A DNA stretch of 56,249 nucleotides from Microcystis viridis FACHB-1342 (GTDB lineage Bacteria; Cyanobacteriota; Cyanobacteriia; Cyanobacteriales; Microcystaceae): NCBI RefSeq assembly GCF_014698335.1, contig NZ_JACJSV010000026.1, positions 1 to 56,249 of the forward strand. The letters are read 5' to 3'. The notes below the pieces were generated by a model. That model had not been told where the DNA came from. It worked only from the letters and a program-made list of their open reading frames with translations, and did not search any database. The translations under genes and the position numbers were made by a program. Shown here in pieces: positions 25,166-34,217 of the stretch. Within the stretch, counting starts at the first letter, position 1, and each line of letters begins with the position of its first letter.

Positions 25166-25669
25166 ATGTCGATGGTTAAACAATATATGCCATTTAAAGA
25201 TTGCTCTAGGGTATTGGGTGCAGAAATTCTTCAATTACGTCCCCCGGCATTTTCTGATGACCCAAAATATAACACATTTAGCTATACCTATTATCCAGGG
25301 GGATTGGAAATTTCCGATAGCTATATCTATTATCCAGGAGAATCAGAAATTTCCGAAGCCCTTGCCAGGGAAATCCCTACGTTCGCCGTTCCCCCGACAA
25401 ATTATCCAGAGGGATTGGAAATTTCCGATAGCTATATTTATTATCCAGGAGGATCGGAAATTTCCGAAGCCCTTGCCAGGGAAATCACTACGTTCGCCGT
25501 TCCCCCGACAAATTATCCAGAGGGATTGGAAATTTCCGATAGCTATATTTATTATCCAGGAGGATCGGAAATTTCCGAAGCTGTTGTTCCTAATATTAGC
25601 ACTTGTCTCTATGCGCTCAAAGCAATCATAGCATTTTTCATCAGAATGAGCCATGGGCAAGAGGCTTAA
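25166..25669 (+). CDS. unrecognised protein built of 37-residue repeats
   Basis: 167 residues. The unit NYPEGLEISDSYIYYPGGSE then ISEALAREI and TFAVPPT recurs with a period of 37 residues (111 bases), and each unit contains two YxPxxxEIS half-repeats. DNA copies are nearly identical, with the palindrome GGAAATTTCC (one AGAAATTTCC variant) at 25306, 25345, 25417, 25456, 25528 and 25567, alternating spacings of 39 and 72. Because the period is a multiple of three, two other frames are open too, so coding is not proven. No signal peptide or membrane segment in the repeats. No family recognised. Confidence 0.4.
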   Translation: MSMVKQYMPFKDCSRVLGAEILQLRPPAFSDDPKYNTFSYTYYPGGLEISDSYIYYPGESEISEALAREIPTFAVPPTNYPEGLEISDSYIYYPGGSEISEALAREITTFAVPPTNYPEGLEISDSYIYYPGGSEISEAVVPNISTCLYALKAIIAFFIRMSHGQEA

Positions 25670-26890: not shown

Positions 26891-29641
26891 ATGAGAGAAA
26901 TTTGGGGATCCCTATTTATTTTTTTAGTCTGTCCTATTATCGGGGGATTGCCTCTGATTGATTGGATAAATTATCTCGTAACTGGACGTAAATTATCCCA
27001 ATTAGGTACTGGTAATATCGGTGTAACTGCCGCTTTTTACCATGGGGGTAAATTGGTGGGAATTTTGGCGGTAATTTCGGAAGCAGCCAAGGGAATTATC
27101 GTTATTCTCCTAACCCGTTTATTTTTTCCCACCGGCTCCACGTGGGAATTATTAGCTTTAATTGCCTTAGTCATGGGGCGCTATTGGTTAGGAAAAGGTG
27201 CGGGAACTACTAATGTTTTCTGGGGATTAATTGTTCACGATTTTGTCGCTGTTTTTCTCACCTTAATCATTAGTGGGATTAGCTTTACTGTCTTTCGAGA
27301 AAAATCTACGGGTAGATTGGTAGGATTATTTTTATTAGCTTTAATTCTCACCTTGCGCCGTCCCCACGATTCAGGTTATATTATAACTGCCATTGCTTTA
27401 GCCTGTTTATTAGGGGCAATTTTTCAAAAAATCGCCGACGATTTAGACTTACCTGAAGCAAATGTTAACAATGAATCAAAAACTATGTTTCGTTTTTTTC
27501 GTGGAGATCGATCAATCCAAACTCTTGATGACAATCTAGCAGCTTCAAAAGTGGGACAAAAGTCCGCCACTTTAGCCGATCTTAAGCGTGCCGGTTATCC
27601 CATTCCTAGGGGTTGGATTTTACCACCAGGAGATGATCCACAACCGTTAATAGAATCTCTTCATCCTGATATTAATCATCCCTTAGTCGTGCGCTCTTCC
27701 GCTATTGGAGAAGATGGTGAAACCGCTTCATCTGCGGGACAATATACCACAATTCTTAACGTTGTTGATCAAGAAAATTTAGCGGCGGCGATTTTAAGTT
27801 GCCAAACCTCCTATAATAGTCCTAATGCTGTTAATTATCGACTCGATCGAGGTCAAGAAAACACGGCCATGGCTGTGTTAATTCAAGAACAAATTCGAGG
27901 AGTTTTTTCGGGGGTTGCCTTCAGTCGTGATCCGATTAATCCTCTCAGTTTAGATGTGGTTATTGAAGCTTTACCCGGAGATGCCACCAGAGTTGTATCG
28001 GGAAGAGTCACCCCCGAAAGTTATCGAGTTAATTTAGAAGAAAATATCATCATCGGAGCGGGAGATATTCCCCCGGCTATTATTCAACAGGTAGCTAATC
28101 TTTGTCGGCAATTAGAAAACCTTGATCATGGCATTCCCCAAGATATAGAATGGACTCATGACGGACACAAATTATGGTTATTACAGTGCCGTCCTATCAC
28201 TAATTTACAGCCAATTTGGACAAGAAAAATCGCAGCTGAAGTTATCCCCGGAGTGATTCGTCCTTTGCCTTGGTCGATTAATCGTCCTTTAACCTGTGGA
28301 GTTTGGGGAGATATTTTCCAGTTAGTTTTAGACAAAAAAGCCCTCGATTTGGACTTCAATGAAACAGCGACTTTACACTATCAAAGAGCCTATTTTAATG
28401 CTTCTTTATTAGGCACAATTTTCCGTCGCATGGGATTACCTCCAGAAAGCTTAGAATTCCTGACCAAAGGAGCAAAGTTTACCAAACCACCGTTAACGGC
28501 AACCTTGGCTAATTCCCCTGGTTTATTAAAACTTTTAGGACGGGAATTACAGTTAGAAAAAGACTTTAGCCAAGATCAAAAAACCTATTTTATCCCAACG
28601 CTCGAAAAAATTAACGCTACTTCCCTAGAAGCTTTATCTTCAGGGGAGATTTTAGAGCAAATTGAGGAGATTTTAACCGTCTTAAAAAAAGCCACCTATT
28701 ATAGTATTCTTGCCCCCCTTAGCTTCGCTTTGCGTCGCAGTATCTCGCGAGTACCTTTTGAGAAATTGGATAACTCTCAAGCACCGGAAATAGCCTCAAT
28801 GCGATCGCTATCTGAACTGAGAAAAAATACGCTCGATCGAGATTTTGACTCAGCTTTTTCCCTCTGGTTAGAAACCTACGGTTATTTAAGCGAAGTGGGG
28901 ACTGATATTTCGATACCGAGATGGCGAGAAAATCCCCCATATCTGCTACAACTACCCTTAGATATTCCGGGCAATAATAGCCAGAAAAAAGTCAAATCTT
29001 CCCACAATGTCCAAAAAAGATTAAATATCAAAAACCAAGTGACTGAAATTTACTCCCGTCTTTTAGCTCACCTACGCTGGCATTTTCTCGCTTTGGAAAC
29101 CCTCTGGTTACAGCAACAAATATTATCAGAGACGGGAGATATATTTTATCTAAACTACTCAGAAGTTATCCAGTTAGGTCAGAATAATAATATCGCCAAT
29201 CTTAAGCAGATTATCCGTCAGCGTCGCCAACAATTCCAAGAAAACTCTCAATTAACTGATATTCCCTATATTGTTTATGGACAACCACCGAAAAGAGAAT
29301 TTTTAGTTTCAAATTTAACTGCCAAAAAACGCTTACAGGGAATTGCCGCTAGTGGGGGGACAGTGGAGGGACGAGTCAAAATTATGCCAACCCTACAAAA
29401 TCTAGAAATTGCCCCTGATACTATTCTCGTTATTCCCTATACTGACTCAGGATGGTCCCCTTTATTATCCCAAGCTGTGGGCATTATTGCCGAGGTGGGG
29501 GGACAATTATCCCATGGTGCTATTATTGCCAGAGAATACGGAATTCCGGCGGTTATGGATGTGCATAATGCCATGAAATTGTTAAAAGATGGTCAATTAA
29601 TTCGTCTCGATGGCAGTCAAGGAATTATTGAAATTCTCTAG
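26891..29641 (+). CDS. PlsY-like membrane domain fused to PEP-synthase-type ATP and phosphohistidine domains
   Basis: 916 residues. Residues 1-185 resemble glycerol-3-phosphate acyltransferase PlsY: several membrane helices, GTGNIGVTAAF at 39-49 (PlsY GSGNxGATN) and MGRYWLGKGAGTT (PlsY GHxFxxFKGGKG, with His to Arg). Residues ~205-440 form a PPDK/PpsA ATP-binding domain with an apparently complete site: VVRSSAIGEDGETASSAGQ at 267-285, GVFSGVAFSRDP, and DIEWTHDGHKLWLLQCRPIT near 420-438. About 350 residues of unassigned sequence follow, then a swivelling phosphohistidine domain with GGQLSHGAIIARE and His875. The C-terminal PEP/pyruvate barrel is missing, as in rifampicin phosphotransferase. 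Substrate unknown. Confidence 0.85.
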   Translation: MREIWGSLFIFLVCPIIGGLPLIDWINYLVTGRKLSQLGTGNIGVTAAFYHGGKLVGILAVISEAAKGIIVILLTRLFFPTGSTWELLALIALVMGRYWLGKGAGTTNVFWGLIVHDFVAVFLTLIISGISFTVFREKSTGRLVGLFLLALILTLRRPHDSGYIITAIALACLLGAIFQKIADDLDLPEANVNNESKTMFRFFRGDRSIQTLDDNLAASKVGQKSATLADLKRAGYPIPRGWILPPGDDPQPLIESLHPDINHPLVVRSSAIGEDGETASSAGQYTTILNVVDQENLAAAILSCQTSYNSPNAVNYRLDRGQENTAMAVLIQEQIRGVFSGVAFSRDPINPLSLDVVIEALPGDATRVVSGRVTPESYRVNLEENIIIGAGDIPPAIIQQVANLCRQLENLDHGIPQDIEWTHDGHKLWLLQCRPITNLQPIWTRKIAAEVIPGVIRPLPWSINRPLTCGVWGDIFQLVLDKKALDLDFNETATLHYQRAYFNASLLGTIFRRMGLPPESLEFLTKGAKFTKPPLTATLANSPGLLKLLGRELQLEKDFSQDQKTYFIPTLEKINATSLEALSSGEILEQIEEILTVLKKATYYSILAPLSFALRRSISRVPFEKLDNSQAPEIASMRSLSELRKNTLDRDFDSAFSLWLETYGYLSEVGTDISIPRWRENPPYLLQLPLDIPGNNSQKKVKSSHNVQKRLNIKNQVTEIYSRLLAHLRWHFLALETLWLQQQILSETGDIFYLNYSEVIQLGQNNNIANLKQIIRQRRQQFQENSQLTDIPYIVYGQPPKREFLVSNLTAKKRLQGIAASGGTVEGRVKIMPTLQNLEIAPDTILVIPYTDSGWSPLLSQAVGIIAEVGGQLSHGAIIAREYGIPAVMDVHNAMKLLKDGQLIRLDGSQGIIEIL

Positions 29642-29654
29642 GCATTAGGGGACA

Positions 29655-29816
29655 GGGTGTAGGGTGTGGGGTGTGGGGTGTAGGGTGTAGGGTGTAGGGT
29701 GTGGGGTGTGGGGTGTGGGGTGTGGGGTGTAGGGTGTGGGGTGTGGGGAGAATAAATAAAATAATCTCCTGACTCCTGACTTCTGACTCGGAGACTCCTG
29801 ACTCGGAGACTCCTAA
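29655..29816. repeat. long GGGTGTG heptamer array plus GACTCC repeats
   Basis: 29655-29749 is about thirteen heptamers of GGGTGTG/GGGTGTA, the longest array in the window. 29757-29816 has CTCCTGACT and CGGAGACTC copies, the reverse of the text near rpsD. The following spacer (29817-30229) is AT-rich and shows no gene, apart from poly-A/T runs near 30125-30165. Confidence 0.92.
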
Positions 29817-30229
29817 CCCAATGGTAGATGTTGGATTTTTGCAGAAGTTCTATTTTTCGACAAAGATAAGCAAAAATTATCTATTGACTGCAATAACTTG
29901 AGAATATTTAAATTAATATTTCGCAATATTTACAAATTCTTAAGAATTAATTGAGAAAGATTTTTATTTAACAACGATGTTCCAATGGTTACAGCGATTT
30001 GATATAATTTCATAATCGGTTATTCTATACTTTTTTGGGCAGCAAAGGTTGAAACCCTTGCCACACCTAGAAGATAATCCCAATTAAGACAGGTAAATGA
30101 GTCAATTTCACCCACAACGATGATCTTTTTTTTGTGTAGTTTTATTGCAAAAAAAAAGTTTTTTTGACAAAAAGCACAAAGTATGATAGACCACCAATGG
30201 ATTTCTAGCCGCAAACAGTAGCTGCTATA

Positions 30230-30925
30230 TTAACTGGTTAAACCGTGTTTTAGGGCAAAACGTACCAATTCCGTGCGACTATTAGTACCAGTCTTGCTAA
30301 ATAAGCGACTGACGTATTTTTCTACGTTCCTAACGCTGGTTTCTAGACGACTGGCAATTTCTTTATTCATCAATCCCTCCGCTACTAAATCTAAAACACT
30401 TTGTTCCCGGGGGGTCAGATCAACTTTAATCGGGGGGGGAGTGGTAGTAAAAGTGTTCTGTTGTCCCACCTGCTGTTTTAATTCCCGGATATCTCGGGCA
30501 ATTTCTTCTAATCTAGCGTTTTCGCTGGTGGCTTGCAGGGATTGACGACGGCGCTCGATTAAAGACTTGATTAATGCTTCTAATTCTTCGGGATCGAAAG
30601 GCTTGGATAAATAAGCATCACAACCAGCATTATAACCCTGAATGCGATCGCTTGTCATCCCCCTTGCAGTGAGAAAAACCACGGGAATTGTCTGAAAACG
30701 AGCATCTTCGCGCAATTTCTTCAGAAACTGATAGCCATCCACCTGCGGCATCATAATATCGGAGATAACTAATTCCGGAATTTCTTGATTGAGTAAATCC
30801 CAGGCTTCGTTAGCATTACTAGCAGTTCTTACCTCGAATTCATCCCCGTACTGTAGATATGCTTGCACAGATTCACGAACCCCCGGTTCGTCATCCACTA
30901 ACAAAACTTTCGCAGGTGTGTCCAT
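30230..30925 (-). CDS. NarL/LuxR-type response regulator, Rre1/Ycf29-like
   Basis: 231 residues from ATG 30925. Receiver domain: VLLVDDEPGVRESVQAYL with the acidic pair, the phosphoacceptor aspartate in ISDIMMPQVDGY, and the lysine in YLSKPFDPEELEAL. ARGMTSDRIQGYNAGCDAYL is the stretch shared with chloroplast Ycf29 and cyanobacterial Rre1, an orphan regulator linked to the Hik2 kinase. A Q/R-rich linker leads to the LuxR helix-turn-helix: LTPREQSVLDLVAEGLMNKE to SVRNVEKYVSRLFSKTG. Not paired with a kinase here. Divergent from the second phosphotransferase-like gene. Confidence 0.88.
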   Translation of the reverse strand: MDTPAKVLLVDDEPGVRESVQAYLQYGDEFEVRTASNANEAWDLLNQEIPELVISDIMMPQVDGYQFLKKLREDARFQTIPVVFLTARGMTSDRIQGYNAGCDAYLSKPFDPEELEALIKSLIERRRQSLQATSENARLEEIARDIRELKQQVGQQNTFTTTPPPIKVDLTPREQSVLDLVAEGLMNKEIASRLETSVRNVEKYVSRLFSKTGTNSRTELVRFALKHGLTS

Positions 30926-30975
30926 CAATTTCTCGCAGCGATCGAATATTGTCCGAATCCTATCTTATCAGCTAA

Positions 30976-31112
30976 GGAGATAGGAGTCAGTAGTCAGTAG
31001 TCAGGAGATAGGAGTCAGGAGATAGGAGTCAGGAGATTGCTTTTATTTATTCTCCCCTCTCCACACCCTACACCCCACACCCTACACCCCACACCCTACA
31101 CCCTACACCCCA
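30976..31112. repeat. GGAGTCA/GGAGATA and CCCTACA arrays
   Basis: 30976-31037 carries alternating GGAGATAGGAGTCAGG units. 31060-31112 carries CCCTACACCCCACA heptamers. They lie between the response regulator and the divergent gene at 31227, so both promoters must lie in the short remaining flanks (30926-30975 and 31113-31226). Confidence 0.88.
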
Positions 31113-31226
31113 CTTTCCAGATCATCCTCAAGATAGTGACGGTGAGTTAAACTAGCAGATAGAACCAAAAAGTTACAAAAATCACACAATAATTTTACAA
31201 TCCTTTCACCATTCTTAACAAATCCC

Positions 31227-33383
31227 GTGACCATTCTCTGCTGGCTCGATCGCATTAGTGCTTCTGATCGCCCCCTGGTGGGGGAAAAAGCTTTTATTGC
31301 CAGTGAATTACACCAGCGAGGATACCCAATTATCAGGGGATTTGCCATTTTTAACCGCATTTTTGCGGAATTTTTGGAAACTATCAACAATACTGACTCA
31401 TTCCTGACTGATTTTCCCCAGTCTTCCCTCTATTTAGACGTAGATAACCCAAAAGCTCTGCAATTAGTCGCCAAAGAAAGTCGCCGCGCCATTTTACAAG
31501 CGCAAATTCCTCCTCTCTGGTTAGAAGAACTAACGGCGGCCGTGGCACAATTATCCATGGATAGCCTAGTATGGCGCTTTTCCTTACCTGCTCATCTGGC
31601 TCGGCGAACTCTCGGTTTATTTTCCGCCCCCATCAGTGGAATTAAAGCAGATAATCTAGAAAATGCCCTAAAACAAGCTTGGGCGGAGTTATTCACCGCC
31701 AGAAGTCTATTTTATTGGCGAAAAGTGGGAATTGGTTTAGAAAAAATTCAATTATCTTTACTGGTACAACCATTATTACCGGCCAATTGTGCGGGAAATG
31801 TGTTGATTAATGACGATAACTGGAAAATTCAGGCAGTTTGGGGGTTAGGACACAGTTTAGTTAATGGAGAAGTGGCACCGGATACCTATATTATCGATCG
31901 CTCCGGTCAATTACGCAGTCGGCAATTAGGCAATAAATCCCGCGCTTATTATCTCAATAGTGACAGTAATCTGCTTGCGGCACAATTATTAGCACCCAGT
32001 TTACAGGAAAGCTACTGTTTAGATAATTTCGCCCTCGATCGCCTTTGTCAACTGGTTCAATCTCTACTAGCGGAAAAACCCCGCTTAACCAGCATAGAAT
32101 GGCTGATGATGCTAGATGGTCAAATTTATATTCTCAACTGTCACAGTCAGGAAATCACCGCTACTACCTCCAATTATCCCTTAAGAGGATTAGGGGCATC
32201 CCCGGGGTTGGTATCGGGAGTGGCAAAAGTGATCAGCAATTTCGACTCCCCAGAGGCAAATTTTCAGGATTGCATTCTGGTTACTACTAATTTACCTCCG
32301 AAAAAACTGCCCCATTTACGCCAAATTCGAGCAATGATCACGGAACAGGGGGGATTAACTAGCCATGGAGCCATCTTAGCCCGGGAATTAGCCATTCCTG
32401 CCATTGTCGGGGTAAAAAATGCCACAGAAATTATCCGCTCAGGCGAGATAATTTTAGTAGATGGTACGAGGGGAATTATTTCTCTAGCATCTCAGGAACA
32501 GATTTCCTTACCCCCAGCACCCCCCAGAGAAACCGACGGGACGGCAATTGCTACCCGTTTGATGGTTAATCTCAGTCAAACTGAAAGTATTGCCAGAATC
32601 CGAGAACTGCCTATTGATGGGATCGGTTTATTGCGCTCAGAATGGATGATTTTAGAGTTACTTTCTCAGCGCAATCTAGAAGAATGGTTAACACCAGAGC
32701 ATCAAGAAGCATTGATCGAGAGATTAAGTGATTTAATCGCACAATTTGCCCTTAGTATCCAGCCTAAGCCTTTATTTTACCGTTCTTTTGATGCTCAACA
32801 TTCGGCTAAAGACAGTCGGGGAACCCATGGTTATATATTAGATCCGACTCTATTTGATCTAGAATTGCAAGCTTTACGACGGGTACAAACCACCAGCGCC
32901 ACCAATATTAATTTACTGCTTCCCTTTGTCCGTGGGGTTGAAGAATTTATTTTCTGCCGGCAACGGGTACAATCGGCTTTACTCACTCAAGTCCCTTCTT
33001 TCCAATTGGGGATAATGGTGGAAGTACCGGGGGTAATCTTTCAATTGAGGGATTATGTGCAAGCAGGGGTACAGTTAATCGCTATTGGTACTAATGATTT
33101 AACTCAATTACTTTTAGGTAGCGATCGAGAACATTTCTCAGAATATTTTAACGCCCGTCATCCCGCAGTCAGGGCAGCTTTAAAACAAATTATCACTCAA
33201 GCAAAAGTTTTACAGATTCCCTGTTCCGTTTGCGGCATGGCCATCGTCCAGTATCCTGAAATTATCGATGATCTGATTGCTTGGGGTGTGACTTCTCTTT
33301 CGGTGGATACAGAAGCAGTTTTAGCCACTAGAGAGGCAATTGTTCGCGCAGAAAGAAGGTTTTTATTGGAAAATGGCAGATAA
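31227..33383 (+). CDS. PEP-synthase-like protein with degenerate ATP domain
   Basis: 718 residues from GTG 31227. Residues 1-310 keep the outline of a PPDK/PpsA ATP-binding domain (VWGLGHSLVNGEVAPDTYII), but key positions are lost: the RSS..ED loop reads WRFSLPAHL, and the terminal LQSRP motif reads YILNCHSQEI. Residues ~330-420 form the phosphohistidine domain (GGLTSHGAILARELAIPAIV, His380). Residues ~440-710 form the PEP-binding barrel, which looks intact: GIGLLRSEWMI, LGIMVEVPGVIFQL, AIGTNDLTQLLLGSDREH and CSVCGMA with Cys669. Likely binds PEP and phosphorylates its own histidine. It may cooperate with the 26891 gene product, which has the opposite deficiency. Confidence 0.85.
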   Translation: MTILCWLDRISASDRPLVGEKAFIASELHQRGYPIIRGFAIFNRIFAEFLETINNTDSFLTDFPQSSLYLDVDNPKALQLVAKESRRAILQAQIPPLWLEELTAAVAQLSMDSLVWRFSLPAHLARRTLGLFSAPISGIKADNLENALKQAWAELFTARSLFYWRKVGIGLEKIQLSLLVQPLLPANCAGNVLINDDNWKIQAVWGLGHSLVNGEVAPDTYIIDRSGQLRSRQLGNKSRAYYLNSDSNLLAAQLLAPSLQESYCLDNFALDRLCQLVQSLLAEKPRLTSIEWLMMLDGQIYILNCHSQEITATTSNYPLRGLGASPGLVSGVAKVISNFDSPEANFQDCILVTTNLPPKKLPHLRQIRAMITEQGGLTSHGAILARELAIPAIVGVKNATEIIRSGEIILVDGTRGIISLASQEQISLPPAPPRETDGTAIATRLMVNLSQTESIARIRELPIDGIGLLRSEWMILELLSQRNLEEWLTPEHQEALIERLSDLIAQFALSIQPKPLFYRSFDAQHSAKDSRGTHGYILDPTLFDLELQALRRVQTTSATNINLLLPFVRGVEEFIFCRQRVQSALLTQVPSFQLGIMVEVPGVIFQLRDYVQAGVQLIAIGTNDLTQLLLGSDREHFSEYFNARHPAVRAALKQIITQAKVLQIPCSVCGMAIVQYPEIIDDLIAWGVTSLSVDTEAVLATREAIVRAERRFLLENGR

Positions 33384-33431
33384 CCTCGGCAAAAGGAGCG
33401 TTAGGGGTTGGCTGTTGGGGAAGATGTTAAG

Positions 33432-33532
33432 TAGGGTTTGCGACAAAAAATTTCTCGTATGGGTAAAACCCTACACCCCACACCCCACACCCCACACCCT
33501 GTCCCCACGAAAAACTTTTTCAGCATATCCTA
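33432..33532. mobile_element. 101-bp element carrying CCCCACA heptamers
   Basis: Left end TAGGGTTTGCGACAAAAAAT and inverted right end TAGGATATGCTGAAAAAGTT share about 20 of the first 27 positions. Between them lie four CCCCACA heptamers (33471-33499). The same end-plus-array combination occurs at 23568 and around 51955. It abuts the broken end of the GH15-like gene. Confidence 0.7.
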
Positions 33533-33545
33533 ATTATACTTATCC

Positions 33546-34166
33546 CTAAAACTGGTTTCTAGCAAGGCTTTCAAAATAGCTTGACATAAAAACTTGATTT
33601 AAGTGACCGCTATCCTCATCCTGCCAATAACTAATCGCTTGAAAATATAAGGGGAATAGGGCAATTGTTTCTAGACAATCGGGGGAAAGCTGAATATATT
33701 TTTCCCGTGCTAAACGACAATAAAACCAGAGAAAATAGCCAAGAGTATCATTTTGTGCGTGTTGCCAAACTTGGTCAATTTCCGTTAGTGTACGTCCCTC
33801 AAAACGAATATGAGGACGTTCCCTGATCTTTTCAGGATTAACCCGACCTTGGATAATATTAATAAAACGCCTTTGGAACTTTTGAAAATAGTTCATCAAA
33901 GTCTGAATATTCTTGACAGCGATCGCTGTCTGTCCGATAATATAGTGAGAATAAGCCAGATAAACGTTATCCCTCAGCCAAACATTGGCATATCCAGTGT
34001 ATTCTGTCTCATTACTGACTAATGCTGCTGGAAATAAGCCATTTTCCAGATGGGGAAATCTCAAGACATCATTTTCCGACAAAAACGCGGATAATCTCTG
34101 AAGCTCCCCCAGAGAGTAGCGGTATTTAATGAAATCGAGAATTTTTTCGTTGTGAACAACCAGCAT
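33546..34166 (-). pseudogene. GH15-like (glucoamylase/phosphorylase-kinase type) gene, 3' truncated
   Basis: From ATG 34166 the frame encodes the N-terminal half of a cyanobacterial GH15-family protein: HLENGLFPAALVSNETEYTG, VWLRDNVYLAYSHYIIGQTA, RPHIRFEGRTLTEIDQVWQH, AQNDTLGYFLWFYC and finally ISYWQDEDSGH. At that point relatives go on with the WEE motif and the catalytic C-terminal half; here the sequence changes to LNQVFMSSYFESLARNQF and stops. About half the usual ~380 residues are missing. The break lies ~90 bases from the mobile element at 33432-33532. Probably inactive. Confidence 0.7.
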
Positions 34167-34217
34167 CGGCAAAATACTCAAATAATCTGCTCAAAAACGC
34201 ATTTATCTCGCTCAATT

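Follow-up and report, generated by a model that had tools for sequence, protein, structure and literature searches.

A predicted membrane-anchored RPH-type dikinase and an ATP-eroded relative of phosphoenolpyruvate synthase as probably independent enzymes in Microcystis viridis

Microcystis is a bloom-forming cyanobacterium. A contig of Microcystis viridis FACHB-1342 (NZ_JACJSV010000026.1, positions 1 to 56,249 of the forward strand; this whole stretch of 56,249 nucleotides is the window referred to below) carries two genes for swivel-domain proteins, here called A (26891-29641) and B (31227-33383), with a response regulator gene (30230-30928) lying between them. A combines a PlsY-like membrane domain with a dikinase of the rifampin-phosphotransferase (RPH) type, and B is a relative of phosphoenolpyruvate (PEP) synthase, PpsA. 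The regulator is convergent to A and divergent to B in the window. The features, by window position, are as follows.

26891-29641, plus strand: gene A, 916 amino acids, fusion of a PlsY-like membrane domain and an RPH-type dikinase
26891-27445, plus strand: A, residues 1-185, PlsY-like integral membrane domain, glycerol-3-phosphate (G3P) clamp lost
27506-28210, plus strand: A, residues 206-440, ATP-grasp domain with intact catalytic residues
28211-29320, plus strand: A, residues 441-810, helical region for binding the acceptor, equivalent to the rifampin-binding domain of RPH
29321-29638, plus strand: A, residues 811-916, swivel domain, phosphohistidine H875 (codon 29513-29515)
30219-33458, no strand assigned: block of regulator and B, inverted relative to three sister genomes
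30230-30928, minus strand: NarL-type response regulator, probably Rre1/Ycf29, 232 amino acids, likely ATG start at 30925
31227-33383, plus strand: gene B, 718 amino acids from a GTG start, related to PEP synthase, ATP site degenerate
31227-32159, plus strand: B, residues 1-311, ATP-grasp fold retained but part of the site residues lost (N304, H306)
32172-32492, plus strand: B, residues 316-422, swivel domain, His380 (codon 32364-32366)
32520-33380, plus strand: B, residues 432-718, PEP/pyruvate barrel (R470, R519, E599, N623, D624, C669)

The distribution of A and B was scored in 194 genomes of the cyanobacterial class, and a phylum sample of 244 genomes was also used. A was called present at E <= 1e-60, with partial matches included for some genomes, and B at 340 bits or more, with the exception of one genome (G011) that was accepted on two fragments scoring 289 and 257 bits; the PpsA background in the B profile search ran from 253 to 300 bits among the matches listed. 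A was detected in 118 of the 194 class genomes and B in 99, so both are common cyanobacterial families. Among named records, those nearest to gene A come from Microcystis and are 97-98% identical to it. Residue conservation was scored over 81 sequences for A and over 30 aligned orthologues for B, with a PpsA comparison set of 12.

Fold comparison matches residues 206-916 of A to an entire RPH-type dikinase. The order of domains, ATP-grasp followed by the helical acceptor region and a C-terminal swivel with no PEP barrel, is that of RPH-Lm and the small-molecule dikinases, and the predicted model is of low confidence at residues 438-451, 692-702 and 790-811. Equivalents of K22, R117 and T136 in the RPH ATP site and of His825 in its swivel, whose roles are described in PMC4844700, are kept in all 81 sequences, with Thr in 56 and Ser in 25 at the T136 position. 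As judged from these residues and the fold, a single chain of A makes up a complete RPH-type dikinase, not a half-enzyme; since the ATP-grasp, acceptor and swivel domains are all present on that chain, A would need no ATP-grasp from B. It differs from RPH-Lm in its N-terminal PlsY-like membrane domain and in the acceptor motif Arg-Glu...Lys, which, positioned by motif spacing only, retains Arg in 81/81 and Lys in 80/81 but Glu in 0/81. Nothing indicates rifampin as a substrate of A.

The PlsY fusion is the most unusual feature of the locus. The PlsY acyltransferase fold was found over residues 3-205 of A by fold comparison, whereas a sequence search of the PDB with residues 1-180 returned nothing up to E 10. 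Alignment of the domain by hhalign to 21 cyanobacterial PlsY proteins gave, at default settings, a probability of 97.3%. PF02660 has a match in 95 of 96 class genomes, and among the matches listed PlsY proper scores 153-194 bits and the A-type domains 45-72 bits. PMC5700162 assigns the G3P clamp of PlsY to S35, R45, K104 and N180, plus H177 and S142, and its acyl-phosphate 'phosphate hole' to loop 104-107 and H92. A shares with PlsY the whole fold and a Thr at the S35 position (T40); it differs in being fused to a dikinase and in carrying Tyr for R45 (Y50), Arg for H92 (R97), Gly for K104 (G105), Phe for H177 (F178) and Ile for N180 (I181). Three MAFFT runs agree on these assignments, and four hhalign runs, with default and altered settings, give the same ones for S35, R45, H92 and K104. 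T40, N42, Y50, R97 and G105 are invariant in 81/81 sequences. Survival of PlsY K104 as K/R102, suggested by motif, was rejected, as the four profile and three sequence alignments place the invariant G105 at that position, and the reading of a kept phosphate-hole loop was dropped along with it. From these substitutions the G3P pocket of A looks lost, with other polar residues strictly kept.

Several variants and neighbours of A were seen. Paralogues of about 600 amino acids (G170:C2:1159733, G299:C92:64326 and G280:C211:17811) match only positions 2-443 of the A profile and are predicted to consist of the PlsY-like and ATP-grasp parts without a swivel. In G215:C95 and G281:C123, A is split into two adjacent frames, one for the PlsY-like part and one for the dikinase part, presumably by natural fission or a frameshift. 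No universal operon partner was found for A or B across 20 loci each and the window. Nostocales-type loci (L189-L236, 21 of 80 named A loci) have a small Cupin_2 gene after A, in the same orientation, and in 16 of those 21 the stop of A overlaps the ATG of the cupin gene as ATGA, an overlap that suggests translational coupling. A DAGK/YegS-type lipid kinase gene is the next gene after A, at a gap of 64-65 bp, in L203 and L210; this neighbour would fit a lipid theme. L203 carries the label Tatlockia but is probably a mislabelled bin, its locus resembling that of Aliterella L210.

B shares with PpsA its three domains and an intact PEP half, and differs from it in the ATP site, which is eroded in all 30 aligned orthologues. 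The phosphohistidine, the catalytic Cys and the PEP-site residues are kept in 30/30. Erosion has gone further in relatives of 679-683 amino acids. In genomes of f24/g49 (L156 and L157, for example) a short B of about 680 amino acids occurs, with hardly any match to the B profile in its ATP-grasp part, and no A match is found there. Unlike Enzyme I of the phosphotransferase system (PTS), B has no Pfam match to an HPr-binding N-terminal domain, and it retains the ATP-grasp fold; no match to the HPr profile was found in this genome, nor in 61 of the 99 B-bearing genomes. Where HPr is present, it lies mostly inside open frames of 816-925 amino acids. Since this genome yielded no HPr, B is not a plain Enzyme I, and a role for it here as a PTS Enzyme I feeding HPr was rejected. 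The Thr preceding the catalytic His, conserved in 12/12 aligned PpsA sequences, is Thr378 in B and prompted a search for control by the PEP-synthase regulator family PF03618. This candidate was also rejected: PF03618 had no match in any of the 194 class genomes, though PpsA is common among them and an E. coli control was positive.

We favour, at a probability of about 0.6, the reading that A and B are two independent enzymes of the swivel superfamily, A being a membrane-anchored RPH-type dikinase, possibly for a lipid, and B an Enzyme-I-like, PEP-driven phosphohistidine protein. In A, the conserved residues and fold suggest that the ATP-grasp domain passes phosphate from ATP to His875. The swivel domain would then bring the phosphate to an acceptor, which the helical region 441-810 is presumed to hold. 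The PlsY-like domain would anchor the protein in the membrane and, in what is the weakest step, its pocket may hold a lipid or lipid-like acceptor, as suggested by the invariant polar residues kept at PlsY substrate sites. The likely net reaction would be ATP + membrane-borne acceptor -> phosphorylated acceptor + AMP + Pi. B may be a PEP-synthase paralogue that largely gave up ATP. Its fully conserved PEP-site residues suggest that PEP phosphorylates His380 to give pyruvate, as in Enzyme I; the phosphate would then pass to an acceptor other than HPr in this organism, with the ATP-grasp fold perhaps serving as a docking or acceptor domain for a partner.

Several observations weigh against this reading. 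The Glu of the RPH acceptor motif is not kept in A, given the spacing-based placement, and the lipid step is weakened by the G105 at the K104 position. In B, the window protein retains K21, R117 and E291, and over the orthologues the R92 position is Arg in 27/30 and the Q335 position Gln in 15/30, so that nucleotide binding is possible. Finally, A and B occur together in 83/194 genomes and lie 13 kb (G365) and 22 kb (G042) apart outside Microcystis.

The anatomy given in the earlier note, made from the sequence alone, stands for B, where the alignment of 30 orthologues agrees with a degenerate ATP site, an intact His380 and an intact PEP barrel. For A, its intact ATP site and its phosphohistidine at His875 are borne out by residues kept in 81/81 and its lack of a PEP barrel by the domain order, but the PlsY-like residues 3-205 had been missed. 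The note's fallback reading, in which each protein acts on an unknown substrate, is the one the present results support.

A more ambitious form of the favoured reading would make A the founder of a group of cyanobacterial membrane lipid dikinases, in which an RPH engine and a re-purposed PlsY pocket yield an acyl or lipid phosphate with AMP and Pi, and B a former PEP synthase turned PEP phosphodonor, an Enzyme I outside any known PTS. We regard this as speculative, with perhaps one chance in a few of being right. A joins phosphohistidine chemistry to a lipid-enzyme fold, in a combination conserved in 118 of 194 class genomes, and if it does phosphorylate a lipid or fatty acid it would open a new way into the metabolism of acyl phosphates or lipid phosphates. 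B, if correctly read, would pass phosphate from PEP to a protein or a metabolite in organisms where HPr is often absent, and could possibly serve as a read-out of the PEP/pyruvate ratio. Gene catalogues can be expected to label A and B 'PEP synthase' or 'glycerol-3-phosphate acyltransferase'. Neither a PlsY-dikinase fusion nor an ATP-dead cyanobacterial PEP-synthase paralogue was found in the literature, as represented by titles and abstract openings among the matches listed, with few subscription journals covered; the one match for a cyanobacterial PlsY plus dikinase among them, PMC5217662, is a gene list. A and B are little-studied enzymes, new variants of known enzyme kinds.

The strongest competitor concerns the substrate of A, which may be a soluble small molecule with the PlsY-like part a mere anchor, a less likely alternative to which we give roughly half the weight of the favoured reading. 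The RPH superfamily has been proposed to act on diverse small molecules (PMC4844700), the clamp residues R45, K104, H177 and N180 of PlsY are all replaced in A, and the small cupin gene that follows A in some loci, with its ATGA overlap, points the same way. Against it, the five invariant positions T40, N42, Y50, R97 and G105 go beyond the needs of an anchor.

For B, it is improbable that the protein is a catalytically silent regulator, such as a PEP-sensing partner subunit of PpsA. It is typical of pseudoenzymes that ATP chemistry is lost while an active paralogue remains, and the PEP pocket is intact; the retention of the phosphohistidine and catalytic Cys in 30/30 nevertheless suggests that phosphate transfer is still selected. 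Somewhat less probable again is that B works as a PEP synthase, ordinary or slow, by way of an altered ATP site. In terms of K22, R92, E323, Q335 and R337, which we take to be the relevant ATP-site positions and roles in PPDK numbering, the R337 position is changed in 30/30 orthologues, E323 in 16/30 and K22 in 11/30, the window protein having N304 and H306; the T136 position is Ser in 14/30, in an uncertain alignment register. The further erosion in the 679-683 amino acid relatives and the canonical PpsA also encoded in this genome likewise argue against a slow PEP synthase.

Very unlikely, in our view, is a split phosphorelay in which PEP charges B, ATP charges A, phosphate moves between their swivel domains and the regulator controls both. 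The active sites of A and B are complementary, from which the earlier note had offered a split system as one reading, and two-component dikinases of the swivel superfamily are known, with domains spread over two proteins in HpeHI, CreHI and the phenylphosphate synthase PpsAB (PMC12167813). The ATP-grasp of HpeHI is a separate protein in that account, whereas A has its own on the same chain with the other two dikinase domains. A two-component dikinase would have its ATP-grasp and its swivel and acceptor parts on separate, mutually required proteins; 51 of the 134 genomes with A or B have a single one of the genes. Across the class sample, 83 genomes have both, 35 A only, 16 B only and 60 neither (Fisher p 1.3e-11). 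This raw association favours a link, but within families it is absent (Mantel-Haenszel odds ratio 0.96, permutation p 0.71) over the 173 of 194 genomes with a listed family, 21 being left out, including four with A only (G303, G308, G322 and G325). With only f1, f22 and f24 varying in both genes, the within-family test is of low power; it takes away the raw signal and leaves room for a link. Whole families have one gene only. In f20, f46 and f47, A occurs without B in 14 of 15 genomes and both in none, and in f24, B occurs without A in 11 of 18. This shows that A and B each persist without the other. The earlier note had held that genomes with one gene as a rule would speak against a pair, and single-gene genomes are indeed frequent but fall short of being the rule.

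Among the 83 genomes with both genes, A and B share a listed contig in 23 and lie on different contigs in 60. Start to start they are 4.3 kb apart in the window, the smallest distance of all, 13 kb in G365 (C34) and 22 kb in G042 (C1); in the remaining 20 genomes the distance is 185 kb or more. The two intermediate spacings favour a link, and 22 kb on the 6.4-Mb contig of G042 would be a little surprising by chance. Of the genomes examined, only those of Microcystis have A and B as close neighbours. The two are convergent in three sister genomes, in an order that differs from the window by inversion. On co-occurrence, family-stratified permutation, gene distance and synteny, the split system was rejected as the best reading. 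Hardly credible at all is a bifunctional A whose PlsY part is a working glycerol-3-phosphate acyltransferase, which was rejected on the replacement of R45, K104, H177 and N180 in all three MAFFT alignments, given that R45K alone costs PlsY more than 90% of its activity (PMC5700162) and that a separate, true PlsY is encoded in the same genome.

The regulator has a LuxR/GerE domain. RpaA and RpaB are OmpR-type regulators, and Rre1 is of the LuxR/NarL type. PMC9321951 places Rre1, RpaA and RpaB in all sequenced cyanobacteria and gives Ycf29 as the plastid homologue of Rre1. Since RpaA and RpaB are OmpR-type, Rre1 is the likely identity, and the regulator is probably Rre1/Ycf29. Its sole Cys is residue 103, in the receiver domain, and the conserved Rre1 Cys is numbered 153 in PMC9321951, the two numberings being unreconciled. 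Matches were found in 112 of the 244 phylum-sample genomes, with at least two class members lacking a match at threshold among the matches listed, and in G131 the regulator lies 6 kb from A. It is a core cyanobacterial gene and no dedicated partner of A or B; a dedicated regulator was rejected, the gene being near universal and, of all genomes examined, adjoining A and B in Microcystis alone. The control point once proposed for it finds no support. It stands between A and B because a 3.2-kb block (30219-33458) is inverted relative to the three sister genomes, which have the order A, B, regulator. A and B are also convergent in two more Microcystis records (L165 and L166). Close to the two ends of the inverted block are arrays of GGGTGTG-type heptamers (29655-29748 and 33468-33499), and a third array occurs upstream of B at 31061-31110, all of them possible recombination sites; the inverted order may also stem from an assembly error in the draft contig. 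In one sister (L107, G095), about 2.4 kb including a 366-codon open reading frame lies between B and the regulator.

Two further open reading frames flank the locus. One, at 25166-25669, contains a 111-bp tandem repeat (2.6 copies, 97%). The other, at 33546-34181 on the minus strand, encodes 211 amino acids that match the glycosyl hydrolase 15 profile only at positions 18-145 of 427, and it looks like a fragment.
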